This document shows positions 1,107-6,144 of a stretch of 64,000 nucleotides of DNA, piece by piece. Made by a program: the position numbers and the translations under genes. Origin of the DNA: a virus; the IMG/VR virus record IMGVR_UViG_3300049489_000842, positions 24,519 to 88,518 of that record. One strand, given 5' to 3'. The notes beneath the pieces were generated by a model, which was given only the letters and a program-made list of their open reading frames with translations, was not told the DNA's origin and ran no database searches. Position 1 is the first letter of the stretch, and each line of letters begins with the position of its first letter.

Positions 1107-1560
1107 GACCGTGCAAGTGAAAAGGTTACTGGACGAATGCCCAGTGTTAGTTGAGTTTATAATAAAACTCTAGCTAAGAGTATAACAAAGCCGCGAGGTA
1201 ACTAAAGGATAAAAAGAATTAAATGCGTCGTGGCAGTGTGGCTCTGCCCTTTAGAAGTTTACCAAGCTGTAGGTGAGATTCCTACAGCTATTTTAACGGC
1301 GCAAAGCACGTAGTGTAGTCTGGAAACTGATCAACCAGAAAGGTACTATTCGATTAGTATTGCGCCTCTATAAAGTCTCTCTGCTTAGGAAACAAGCATA
1401 CATACCAGCGTAAACCTGGTAGCAATATCAACTAATTATGTAGATTTGGCAAATCAGCTTGTGGAGTAGGTTATAATAATAAAGAATAACAAGAAAGTAA
1501 CATAAGAAACATGACTTGCTTTAATGTTATAATACTTTGCCAGGTACAGAGAGATTTTAT
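1107..1560 (+). ncRNA. Large structured noncoding RNA candidate (region A)
   Basis: The 489 bases between genes lack a sensible reading frame but are packed with complementary segments. Visible helices: 1128-1132 with 1141-1145; 1153-1158 with 1165-1170 inside 1147-1150 with 1174-1177; 1202-1207 with 1249-1254 around 1232-1236 with 1244-1248; a 9-bp hairpin 1265-1273 with 1281-1289 and a 7-base loop; and 1298-1302 with 1362-1366 enclosing 1319-1323 with 1335-1339 and 1343-1347 with 1356-1360. A 14-pair helix, 1370-1383 with 1547-1560 (one G-U pair), closes a 190-base domain. That domain contains 1403-1408 with 1416-1421, a 10-pair helix 1444-1453 with 1536-1545, 1470-1474 with 1486-1490 and 1498-1503 with 1524-1529. 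Group I core sequences are absent. It could be an ornate phage RNA of the GOLLD/ROOL kind or a new class. The class is not identified and the ends are estimates. Confidence 0.6.
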
Positions 1561-1581: not shown

Positions 1582-1860
1582 ATGGGAGTAAATCAATTAA
1601 AGAAGTATGTAATATTACACTTAACTGATAATGGGTGGAAAGTAGAGATGCCACACTATGATCGTGTATATGTAAAAGATGGAAAAACCATTATAGTAGA
1701 ACATAATCATGTAAATTTTTACTTTAGAGGGTATTACTTCGGTAAGTGTGATCACACTAATTTATTAACAGATTGTCATGCATTTATAAGATACTTTGTT
1801 GAGGGAGATAACATGGAACAGAAACCACAAGATCCTCTTAGTATCTTTGATTCATTATAA
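1582..1860 (+). CDS. Hypothetical protein between two structured RNAs
   Basis: The product is 92 aa and starts after an A-rich leader (aacttaaaaag) directly behind the closing helix of structured region A. The first 70 residues look like a small alpha/beta fold with many aromatic and His residues (HYDRVYVKDGKTIIVEHNHV, then FYFRGYYFGK). The tail is polar (MEQKPQDPLS). Its stop abuts structured region B. It may be an ordinary small gene downstream of an RNA element, or it may be carried within one large RNA locus. The family is not recognised. Confidence 0.55.
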   Translation: MGVNQLKKYVILHLTDNGWKVEMPHYDRVYVKDGKTIIVEHNHVNFYFRGYYFGKCDHTNLLTDCHAFIRYFVEGDNMEQKPQDPLSIFDSL

Positions 1861-1865
1861 GGCTA

Positions 1866-2120
1866 CGGCCTAGGCTAGAGAAAAGACAGCCTGCAGCACC
1901 TGAGAAGGACTGCGAAATATCGTCAGTAATGGCGGACATGTTATTGCCTTGAGAAAGCAAGCCGAAATAGGATTATATTGTAGTGAAAGACACTAGGGTA
2001 TCCATAACATGAACTCGTTCTCGGCATAAAGAATTCCTCTCTTTAGTGTGAAGGATAACTTTAGAGATATGAACTGCTGGTATACCAGAATCAGTCCTGT
2101 CTTTGACCCTGAGTAATCAG
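1866..2120 (+). ncRNA. Second structured noncoding RNA candidate with pseudoknot (region B)
   Basis: This stretch between two small genes shows long-range pairing. AAAGACAG 1882-1889 pairs with CTGTCTTT 2097-2104, and the helix continues through 1907-1912 with 2092-2097, closing about 220 bases. Inside are ATGTTAT 1938-1944 with ATAACAT 2004-2010, CTTG 1948-1951 with 1958-1961, GGAT 1970-1973 with ATCC 2000-2003, and TAGTG 1981-1985 with CACTA 1991-1995. GCCGA 1961-1965 can pair with TCGGC 2021-2025, crossing the 1938/2010 helix, which would be a pseudoknot. A palindromic CTGGTATACCAG lies at 2076-2087. The 3' end is a perfect hairpin CCCTGA/TCAGGG at 2107-2122 without a T run. The RNA class is not recognised; it may form one locus with region A. 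Confidence 0.55.
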
Positions 2121-2145
2121 GGTGCTAAAACTAAAACTCTTAAAA

Positions 2146-2778: not shown

Positions 2779-3387
2779 ATGAATTTTGATTTTTTAAATG
2801 ATTTGGGAGAGTCTTTACTTCCTGTTGAAACAAAAAAGAGAGTAGCAGCTTCTAAAGTTCCTGTAAATGGAATAATGAGGGTGACTAAAAAACAGATTGT
2901 ATTTGGAGATGAGTTTCGTGCATCTGTGGGAACAAAGATGATTGACATGGTTTTCTCAACTGAGTGGAGTCAATATCCTACCGGAAAACCTAAAGTCCTG
3001 TTTTGTGTAGTGCTGCTTAACGAGGAAAAACCTCTTAAGGCTGACATTAAGAAAGAAGGACCAACACAGTATGCTGCAGAGCTTCTTGGTAAACTCATTA
3101 ATTTCTTTGATCTACCCGAAGATACTAAATCTGTAGAGTTAGATTGGAGCCCAGAAAATGCTGTGTTTGTGAAAAAGGCACGCTTTTCTAAAATTGTACA
3201 GAGAGGAGAAGAGAAAGGGTTGCCTACTTATGTTACCAGGGACAATGCCCACATGAACCCGGTCTTTGTTGTAGCTAATGCTGAAGAGGTATTAGAAGAT
3301 GATATTGAATTGGAAGATCTTAGAAACACACCTGAGGTTGATACAGACATTGTAGAAGAGGACGCTATACCACAGAAAAAGAAGTAA
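2779..3387 (+). CDS. Putative replication-associated protein upstream of DNA polymerase
   Basis: The product is 202 aa. The body is beta-rich with a conserved-looking core (PVNGIMRVTKKQIVFGDEFRA, then MVFSTEWSQYP and TKSVELDW). The end is strongly acidic (residues about 170-195, DDIELEDLRNTPEV and TDIVEEDAI) and finishes in a basic tip (PQKKK). Acidic tails are common in single-strand DNA-binding and polymerase-accessory proteins. The gene lies 3 bases before the polymerase start, so a role at the fork is plausible. A better SSB candidate is the gene at 10190. This assignment is contextual and the family is not recognised. Confidence 0.5.
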   Translation: MNFDFLNDLGESLLPVETKKRVAASKVPVNGIMRVTKKQIVFGDEFRASVGTKMIDMVFSTEWSQYPTGKPKVLFCVVLLNEEKPLKADIKKEGPTQYAAELLGKLINFFDLPEDTKSVELDWSPENAVFVKKARFSKIVQRGEEKGLPTYVTRDNAHMNPVFVVANAEEVLEDDIELEDLRNTPEVDTDIVEEDAIPQKKK

Positions 3388-3390
3388 TCA

Positions 3391-5076
3391 ATGCTTACAA
3401 TGGTATTGAGCAAAACGGGAGGGAAACTAGGAAAGTACCTCCCTTTTGTTACTGATGATTTCCAAAAGTTTAAAGACTGGATTGATCCTATTACTGGGTA
3501 TATAGCTCATGATTTAGAAACAACCATGACTAAATCAGTACTTGATAGACAAATGCTCTTATCTGCTTACTATTATGATGATGTAGCATGGGTTGTATTT
3601 ATTGAAGAGCTAACACCAGAAGAGCTTGCAGAACTGTGTGTAATAATGAGTAATAAGAAACTTATTATACAGGCATCCAAGTTCGAATATGGTATGTGGA
3701 GAAAGTATGGAGTGTTTTTAGAGAAATATCATGATATATACCTACAGGATAAACTCCTGTATATGGGTATAGATGGAGAGAAGTTTGATTTATCGAGTAT
3801 TCTTCATAGATATCTTGGTAAGACTCTAGATAAAACACTACAAACAAGCTTTACAGCTTGTTCTGAGGTAACAGATGATCAGCTTGAGTATGCTGTGGCA
3901 GATATAGTAGACTTACCTTTAATTATGGAGCTTCAGCTAGAGAAAATAGCTCTTCATGATAAGAAGTTTAAGTTCTTTATCCAGAAAACTGCCCATAAAA
4001 ACAGAGGATTGCAGAAAGCATCATGGTGGACGCATGAGTTCAGTAAAGTACTGAATGATATGCAGTATACCGGCGTAAACTTTAATCCTATTAAATGGGA
4101 GGAGTTGTATCATAAATCATTTCCAATTGTTGAGGCAGCTACAAAAAAGCTCAATGATATATTGGTAAGGGATTTCAAATTACAGTTAGCCGGAGAAGGC
4201 ATGTATTTACTCAAGGATACTCCTGTAGATAAGCTATTTTCTTCTCCTGATAAAAAGCTAAAACTTCTTAATATTATGTTCCCCCTTTTAACTAAAACTT
4301 CGAATTATGAAGTTACTCAGTATTTAAAAGAACATGATCCTTCATTTGTTAAAGGTAAAGCTTACCTAAATACCTATGAAAAGAACAATTTTTCTATACT
4401 CAAATTGAGTATCGCGGGGAATGTTAAGGTTTTAGAGTCGTTTTTTGTAGAAAACTTTCGAGATGAGATGGTAAAAAGGGAATTGTTGTTACCAGCCGGA
4501 ACATTGCTGGTAAACTGGGCAAGTCCTATTCAAAGAAAGACTATCTTTCAATGGATACATCCCCAATTAGAAAGTACAGATAAAGAACATATAGCTGAAA
4601 TAGCTTGGAAACATGAGTTATTGCAGGTGTATTCAGAAGAATATTCCAATGCAAATAATCGCATAACTAAGTTTGGATTAAAGTATCTTGAGCATATAGA
4701 TTTAGATGGAAGAATAAGAACTAACATAGATCCTGTTTTAAACACAGGAAGGATATCTTCTTCTAAACCGAATGTATTAAATATCATCAACGATGCTGAA
4801 TACCGTTCTGCTTTTATCTGTAGTCCTGGATTTAAAATGCTTGGATGTGATTATAAAGGACAGGAGCTAGTCATTACAGCTCATGTATCTGGCGAGCAGC
4901 AATGGATTAAAGCTATAAGGGAGGATAAGGACTTGCATTCCATCAATGCAAGAAACACATTCTCAAGCTGGAATTCCCATACTCTTAAAGATTGTACTTT
5001 TTCTATTGATGAGAAGAAGTGTAAGTGTCCAGGGCATAATATCCTGAGGGGAAATGCTAAGACTGTTGTATTCGGT
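3391..5076 (+). CDS. DNA polymerase I family (family A), exon 1
   Basis: This exon encodes residues 1-562 of a family A polymerase of about 730 aa that copies the phage genome. A DnaQ-like 3'-5' exonuclease domain comes first: HDLET at 40-44 (motif I) and YAVADIVDL around 167-175 (motif III, D171). The polymerase domain follows, with motif A at about D487 (CDYKGQELV) and the start of the O-helix, R553 to G562 (AKTVVFG). The unspliced frame stops at 5089-5091, just past the helix. Continuity is restored by joining base 5076 to 5638, which gives VVFG-IIYG, the order expected from Pol I. ATG 3391 follows the previous stop by 3 bases; ATG 3403 is an alternative start. Splicing is inferred from the sequence. 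Confidence 0.9.
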
Positions 5077-5637
5077 AAACAATCACTATAAATATGAAAA
5101 ATGCCGAATTAAAAGACTGTAAATTCAGGGAAACCTTAACGCATAATGGCGATGGCAATCCTGAGCCAAGCCCAGAAAATAGGGAAGGTGCAGAGACTAT
5201 AATCAGACTATGTGTGTTGTGTGGAGAACATATTTCTTTGGTGAGATCTAAACAAGCTAAATACTGCAGTAATGTATGTAAGCTTAAAATGAATAGAATT
5301 AAACGTGTTTTACTTAATGGAGGAAAGCCTGGTGTAGGTTCCGGAGGAAATCAATTTGGTGAAAAGAATAGCCAATGGATAAACGGAAAGATTGCATTCA
5401 GGAGAATCGGAAGAGAAGCCCACGGAGAGGTTTGTAATAGATGTAAATCTACTTCTTATCTGGTAGTTCATCATATAAATGAAAATAGAGATGATAACAG
5501 AAAAGAAAACCTCGAAGTCTTATGTAAAGCATGTCACCAAAATCATCACGCAATCAGAGATGCCTTAACAGGAAGATATATCTCTAAAAATACATAAAGG
5601 GATAGTCCACTCCGGTATGAAAATATTGGGTAAAGTG
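5077..5637 (+). ncRNA. Group I self-splicing intron in the DNA polymerase gene
   Basis: Classic group I landmarks are visible. P1: exon bases 5070-5076 (ATTCGGT) pair with the internal guide GCCGAAT at 5103-5109, with a U-G pair at the splice site. P/Q elements: TTCAGGGAAACC at about 5124-5135 and GCAATCCTGAGCCAAGCCC at about 5155-5173. R element: AAGGTGCAGAGACT at 5185-5198. P7: GACTAT 5195-5200 pairs with ATAGTC 5602-5607 in AAGGGATAGTCC. The core resembles the IC3 type found in cyanobacterial tRNA-Leu introns. The 3' site is set after G5637 because this restores the polymerase O-helix in frame; this base is inferred. The intron is 561 bases and hosts an HNH gene. Confidence 0.9.
5094..5597 (+). 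CDS. HNH homing endonuclease within the group I intron
   Basis: The product is 167 aa. A zinc-knuckle-like segment (CVLCG at about 41-45, CSNVC at about 59-63) is followed by the HNH core: CNRCK near 116, then VVHHINENRDDN and the CKACHQNHH end near 148-156. HNH enzymes of this type cut intronless alleles and spread the intron. The first 36 or so residues are simply the translation of the ribozyme core (P3-P7), so gene and ribozyme overlap; initiation further inside is possible, but no good ATG exists before about residue 67. The coding sequence fills the interval between the two strands of P7. Target specificity cannot be read from the sequence, but the O-helix codons of the polymerase are the natural candidate. 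Confidence 0.88.
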   Translation: MKNAELKDCKFRETLTHNGDGNPEPSPENREGAETIIRLCVLCGEHISLVRSKQAKYCSNVCKLKMNRIKRVLLNGGKPGVGSGGNQFGEKNSQWINGKIAFRRIGREAHGEVCNRCKSTSYLVVHHINENRDDNRKENLEVLCKACHQNHHAIRDALTGRYISKNT

Positions 5638-6144
5638 ATAATTTATGGAATTACTAAGTATGGCTTATCCTATAAGATAAAGTCCAGTGTGGATGCAGCT
5701 CAAGTTGTCATTGATGACTTTCGTGCAGCAACACCTGCAGTTACTTTATTCTTTAAGAAAATGGCTGACTTTACGGTTAACCAGGGTTATACACCTGAAT
5801 CTGGATTGGGCACGGCTCGGTTTATCCAGAAAAAGAGACTGGCATACGATAAAGAAGCAGTTATGAGGGAATCTGGTAACTTCAATATTCAAGGTGTTGG
5901 AGCCGGGATATTGAAAGTAGCTACATCTCTTATGAGAAGACATATTAGACATCATGATATGGTGGATAAGGCTTTGATAGTACTTACTCCTTATGATGAA
6001 ATTGTGATGGATGTTGAAGACTCCTTAGTGGATTATTGGAAAGTAAAACTTCCTTATTTCATGGAGTTAGCAGCCAAGTTGGTTCTTGGTTCGGATATAT
6101 TAAAGGCAGATACACCTGCTGTTGGAGATTTCTGGATACATTAA
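5638..6144 (+). CDS. DNA polymerase I family (family A), exon 2
   Basis: This exon encodes the last 168 residues. It starts with IIYGITKYG, the second half of the O-helix, and contains motif C as PYDEIVMDV (D682, E683 of the spliced protein). The residue before D682 is Tyr, where Pol I has His. The frame is open from the ATG at 5617, so an unspliced message could also yield a free C-terminal piece, which would be inactive alone. The following gene begins 2 bases after the stop. Confidence 0.88.
   Translation: MIYGITKYGLSYKIKSSVDAAQVVIDDFRAATPAVTLFFKKMADFTVNQGYTPESGLGTARFIQKKRLAYDKEAVMRESGNFNIQGVGAGILKVATSLMRRHIRHHDMVDKALIVLTPYDEIVMDVEDSLVDYWKVKLPYFMELAAKLVLGSDILKADTPAVGDFWIH

Follow-up and report, generated by a model that had tools for sequence, protein, structure and literature searches.

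A cluster of structured noncoding RNA modules in the early region of a crAss-like phage, with one module shared among three phages

The early region of a crAss-like phage was found to hold a cluster of separate, structured RNA modules that do not code for protein, one of which, here named element A, recurs in a second crassvirus as well as in a 334-kb jumbo contig. The window analyzed comprised 64,000 bases, corresponding to bases 24,519–88,518 of the 88,518-base IMG/VR record IMGVR_UViG_3300049489_000842, and coordinates refer to this window unless stated otherwise. As an explanation that we consider an even call, the cluster may be organized like a tRNA operon, with element A being transferable and acting in trans.

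The MCP encoded to the left of the window matched Pfam Crass_capsid (E 1.6e-130), and TerL showed about 38% identity to crassviruses in GenBank and up to 67% to IMG/VR fragments. Because of these matches of MCP and TerL the phage is, as judged from sequence, crAss-like, and it lies far from any isolate. The noncoding stretch at 1107–1560 sits amid small rightward ORFs, just 5' of the replication genes (polA, helicases and primase). Using the proteins of 2779–3387 and 3391–5091 as baits in IMG/VR gave zero relatives, and the same approach succeeded with TerL. The family A DNA polymerase was seen to be distributed over two ORFs (3391–5091 and 5617–6144) having an HNH endonuclease gene in between (5094–5597), and bases near 5108–5199 were 78–87% identical to Klebsiella and Staphylococcus phage DNA, which together suggests a mobile intron or homing insertion.

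On the plus strand, 1107–1560 folded at -124.1 kcal/mol compared with -100.5 ± 5.7 kcal/mol for its shuffles (z -4.16, with 0/100 shuffles as good), and more weakly on the minus strand (z -2.80). It is the best-folded part of the early-region cluster that lies within the window. Reading with table 11, and with TAG as Gln (Q) or TGA as Trp (W), revealed no ORF of at least 40 aa across the stretch except short frames of 41–47 aa. The original prediction, of a structured noncoding element exceeding any terminator or leader and carried by a crAss-like phage, was thereby borne out by the fold, the absence of a gene and the Crass_capsid match. The Rfam search that it had proposed was performed using the Rfam 15 covariance models of all families, including GOLLD, ROOL and OLE, and gave no window matches at gathering; when they were applied to 900–2300, nothing relevant appeared even with E allowed up to 10. 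Neither a sigma-70 promoter nor a terminator could be convincingly identified. The features of the region, together with examples from the left half of the cluster, are as follows.

1107–1251, plus strand: 5' structured domain from the MFE fold, with uncertain boundaries and no match in G009 (the second crassvirus) or G024 (the jumbo contig)
1265–1289, plus strand: perfect 9-pair hairpin followed by ATTTT, from the fold and a base-by-base re-check
1298–1366, plus strand: 69-nt cloverleaf-like module with closing stem GGCGCAA/TTGCGCC and three hairpins
1370–1560 (191 bases), plus strand: element A, a closed RNA module conserved in three phages
1370–1383, plus strand: 5' strand of the closing stem P1, ATAAAGTCTCTCTG, with two compensatory and two one-sided changes among three sequences
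1443–1455, plus strand: hairpin X, GATTT-GGC-AAATC, opening the invariant core GATTTGGCAAATCAGYTTGTG
1444–1453 with 1536–1545, plus strand: 10-pair alternative stem competing with X and Y
1533–1546, plus strand: hairpin Y, TACTT-TGCC-AGGTA, directly abutting the 3' strand of P1
1547–1560, plus strand: 3' strand of P1, CAGAGAGATTTTAT, then a T-rich tail, from the alignment
1582–1860, plus strand: small ORF of 92 aa between the two noncoding stretches of the cluster, without any family match
1861–2140, plus strand: second noncoding structured stretch of the cluster (fold z -2.63, 1/100 shuffles as good), without Rfam match
L003:2803–2871, 2884–2961, 3123–3227, 3264–3376, 3698–3832 and 4150–4230: examples of modules in the left half of the cluster

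Among the helices originally proposed, the 14-pair stem 1370–1383/1547–1560 was paired at 14/14 positions with one G–U, and the hairpin 1265–1273/1281–1289 at 9/9. The GGCGC/GCGCC stem at 1298/1366 also paired in full (5/5) and extends to 7 pairs, enclosing three hairpins (1306–1316, 1319–1339 and 1343–1360, the last having the loop TTCGAT) and not two as had been stated. The 10-pair stem 1444–1453/1536–1545 could likewise be drawn (10/10, with two G–U pairs), but its formation excludes two hairpins that are conserved equally or slightly better. For a tRNA we looked for recognition by ARAGORN or RF00005, a 7-pair acceptor and an adjoining 5-pair T-arm with a 7-nt TTCRANN loop. The cloverleaf-like module does show a 7-pair closing stem, but it was rejected as a tRNA, being negative with both ARAGORN and RF00005 and having a T-like loop of 6 nt and an anticodon-like loop of 11 nt. 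Since the group I and II intron models of Rfam gave no match in the stretch either, and the tRNA tests were all negative, the earlier statement that it does not match group I or tRNA is upheld. Bases 1107–1366 fold as separate domains, and no homologues were found of either 1107–1366 or 1861–2140. The latter, containing the string GCAAGCCGAAATAGG, was also considered as RNase P and discarded, with no match to the class A model.

The evidence for a family concerns element A. In G009, a crassvirus of 93 kb whose TerL is 57% identical to that of the window phage, BLAST against TerL-sharing records identified two pieces of the stretch in collinear order, and a pattern made from the shared core then led to the third copy in G024. 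Element A of the window was 67% identical to that of G009 (147 columns, E 3e-12) and 72% identical to that of G024 (120 columns, E 4e-13). Because the TerL of the window phage found no match in G024, and because of the nature of its large proteins, among them one that resembles a terminase and contains a LAGLIDADG domain and one that resembles RecA, the jumbo contig is, on these grounds, a different kind of phage. The terminase-like protein itself (L217:11417–14878, 1153 aa, assigned by sequence reading) likely carries its LAGLIDADG domain as an intein. A covariance model of element A scored its members at 176–199 bits and everything else in 31 records at no more than 21 bits, with membership by this measure being circular as the model was built from the same three sequences. 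We define the family (R1) by the P1 closing stem, hairpins X and Y and the invariant cores, all found in the three members. In each of the three phages, TATAAA either stands immediately 5' of element A or forms its start.

The unit directly 5' of element A in the window is the cloverleaf-like module; at this place G009 has an element B, and G024 a further closed module. Element B is common to G009 and G024 and includes a 27-base identical block. Having three different 5' neighbors, element A shows the 450 bases to be a row of units. The claim of one 450-base RNA thus did not hold, as element A is found elsewhere with other 5' modules and 1107–1366 has no detectable counterpart there.

Further members were sought widely. 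IMG/VR and GTDB (for the latter, 84,980 genomes with one pattern) were searched with core patterns, both exact and gapped, and gave, outside G009 and G024, no noncoding match with both core halves properly arranged; L212 and L213 matched the gapped pattern and were rejected since they look coding. The element B pattern matched in G009 and G024 only. BLAST of GenBank phages and PLSDB revealed no further element A, and the covariance model found no fourth member in the 31 crassvirus, jumbo and reference records, phi14:2 and four bacterial genomes. Weak matches in 6/148 genomes of one bacterial order were dismissed, as they involved the AT-rich variable part or the T tail and not the core. INPHARED gave nothing when the queries were 1050–1600, the G024 array and the cluster's left half, and among the papers listed by literature searches none reported crassvirus noncoding RNA of this kind. 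On this sequence evidence, element A represents an RNA family that Rfam lacks and that has three known members, and the suggestion of a new class is defensible for element A alone and not for the whole stretch.

With regards to the fold, P1 kept 13/14 pairs in each of the three copies. Two pairs differ at both bases (C–G versus U–A) and two at one base only, the wobble changes (G–U and U–G) being of the type allowed on the plus strand. P1 was 97% paired compared with 38–53% for slid controls. The collection of homologues and covariation suggested beforehand thus yielded two homologues with a maintained stem, but the covariation does not clearly exceed a column shuffle, which reached the observed level in 61/500 cases, and for this reason we regard it, from three sequences, as supportive and not conclusive. 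The loops of hairpins X and Y are complementary (GGCA/UGCC), and Y reads UACYU-UGCC-AGGUA across the copies; G009 breaks one pair (A·C) of the 10-pair stem, yet strengthens Y. Our preferred model is a kissing-loop fold of X and Y, with a switch between X/Y and the 10-pair stem being possible. The invariant core, GAUUUGGCAAAUCAGYUUGUG and UUGCCAGGUACA, is mainly conserved as sequence in or beside loops, as would be expected of a binding surface.

The cluster as a whole spans about 22.8–26.7 kb of the genome; roughly half lies immediately to the left of the window, and there is a rightward continuation at 1861–2140. We counted 15 strong long-range stems in 3.85 kb (genome 22,790–26,640), compared with 3.3 ± 1.75 and a maximum of 8 in 40 dinucleotide shuffles, and with a mean of 3.2 in equal windows elsewhere in the genome, one of which reached 9. 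What looks like a 4.3-kb gap at the record's left end, probably an ORF running off the contig, was not counted. The modules are about 70–250 nt long, many are closed by a stem of 11–18 pairs, and they are packed a few bases apart or between tiny ORFs. A near-match to the DUF805b RNA (35.1 bits, curated cut-off 35.6, E 2.8e-7) was seen at L003:2198–2229 (genome 22,198–22,229), falling at the start of an early ORF. Fragments L005 and L007 also hold closed modules on the same side of TerL, without obvious sequence similarity, and strong stems around the clusters of G009 and G024 are only modestly denser than on average in those genomes. In the reverse complement of L007 (11095–11203), one module contains GGACCTAAAG and a near-complement, each twice and nested. 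On the minus strand of L069, a repeated AATTAAAAGTTCTTTGAAAATATAAA upstream of two modules resembles a boxA antitermination element plus a TATAAA box.

Genes for tRNA and tmRNA occur near the corresponding loci of relatives. The G009 cluster lies near tRNA-Asn and a degenerate tRNA-like gene (G009:25675–25747, about 2666–2738 of L027) that was not called by ARAGORN; its 7-pair acceptor is perfect, its T-arm has 5 pairs and the loop TTCAATT, and its anticodon-like loop is 7 nt long. The G024 cluster is 4–5 kb from a tRNA, and a CCA-adding or poly(A) polymerase-like protein is encoded about 6 kb from it (L216:6881–8287). The cultured crassvirus Cellulophaga phage phi14:2 carries, at 4031–4500 of L256 (NC_021806.1), a divergent tmRNA with the ARAGORN tag GSSVQKLAMVA and an RF00023 score of 46.0 bits (cut-off 47, E 2.6e-16). 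It is absent from the annotation examined and falls in a part of the genome whose ORF calls were withdrawn in 2020; its position upstream of the replication genes corresponds to that of the cluster. As the same tools detect this divergent tmRNA, our tmRNA and tRNA tests are able to find distant cases. Element A was rejected as a tmRNA, with no RF00023 or ARAGORN match and no tRNA-like end.

In the tRNA-operon-like explanation, the cluster would be made as one long early transcript and be cut at or near the closing stems, with RNase III-type cutting as the obvious candidate, giving stable RNAs as in phage tRNA operons. Such an array is suggested by the tight packing, the closing stems and the strand consistency with early genes, and by relatives having tRNA or tmRNA genes at this place or close to it. 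Element A may then use its invariant core to act in trans on a factor that Bacteroidota hosts have in common, most likely one that belongs to RNA processing, to translation or to an RNA-targeting defence; that single units occur in unrelated phages points to a function that is autonomous and of use within a shared group of hosts.

The main rival, which we hold to be rather unlikely, is that the structures are cis-acting 5' UTR or attenuation elements of small early ORFs and not free RNAs. They do alternate with such ORFs, element A ends 21 bases 5' of the ATG of the 1582–1860 ORF, and the mutually exclusive pairings of X and Y versus the 10-pair stem could form a switch; the sequence 3' of element A is, however, different in all three phages, being the 92-aa ORF in the window, lacking any ORF of at least 40 aa within 150 nt in G009 and consisting of more noncoding modules in G024. 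That a single 450-nt ornate RNA would act as a unit, similar to GOLLD or ROOL and perhaps oligomeric, agrees with the unbroken noncoding stretch and its strong overall fold, but is made improbable by the recurrence of element A alone with unrelated 5' neighbors, by the separate domains of 1107–1366 and by the lack of any matching Rfam family.

A DNA-level function, as an origin, cruciform, packaging or recombination site, would fit with long inverted repeats and with an element common to unrelated phages; the changes in P1 and Y, however, keep the G–U pairs of one strand only, the invariant core is itself no long palindrome and many different modules lie side by side, so that we find this reading quite improbable. 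To a similar degree we doubt chance folding of AT-rich intergenic DNA, even if the best long stem of 1093–1581 was equalled in 4/500 dinucleotide shuffles and element A of G024 alone had a fold z of only -1.2, because of the conservation of element A across phages and the cluster statistics; for element A it is already disfavoured, and 1107–1251 may still be such a case. Very improbable, finally, is a degenerate tmRNA or tag-encoding RNA. All three copies do contain in-frame DLANQ[LF]V[DEN] followed by a stop codon (1443–1470 and the L027 and L069 equivalents), stem-loop Y lies against the closing stem where a T-arm would be, and the phi14:2 tmRNA is at the corresponding locus, but no tmRNA matched at E up to 10, there is no T-loop, CCA end or common start or resume signal, the tag has no LAA-type end, and the third codon positions of the core are invariant, as expected of RNA rather than coding constraint.

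Returning to the tRNA-operon-like explanation, element A, being shared by two crassviruses and the 334-kb jumbo contig, probably has a use in a common type of host. The cluster suggests that some crAss-like phages have an early region that is in part an RNA operon and not a set of poorly annotated small genes. This can be tested on an isolate since, at the corresponding locus, the cultured phi14:2 has a tmRNA along with further sequence that is noncoding. More tentatively, Bacteroidota phages might carry fast-changing early-region arrays of closed non-tRNA RNAs, an 'RNA arsenal', with units such as element A being exchanged among unrelated phages because each unit targets a host or defence factor that is conserved. 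Should the units turn out to be RNAs directed at host or defence, they would be a source of new RNA inhibitors.

Among known systems, GOLLD and ROOL, named at the outset as ornate phage RNAs, share with the present stretch that they are densely folded noncoding RNAs. The resemblance that had been proposed does not extend beyond size, with no Rfam match and with small separate modules here in contrast to one long RNA. Their structures have been described (PMC12286853). Homo-oligomeric RNA assembly would be a mark of membership among them. The tmRNA (RF00023, as in phi14:2) has the corresponding genomic position, and its likeness to element A includes a closing stem with a stacked hairpin; element A differs in being much shorter and in having no covariance-model match, T-arm or CCA. 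Compared with phage tRNA operons, the window modules have no recognizable tRNAs, many folds and often closing stems of 11–18 pairs. The likeness lies in an array of tightly packed structured RNAs, presumed to be cut from a common precursor, in the tRNA and tRNA-like genes near the G009 cluster and in the tRNA near that of G024, and the species 1 and 2 RNAs of T4 are non-tRNA stable RNAs within a phage tRNA operon.
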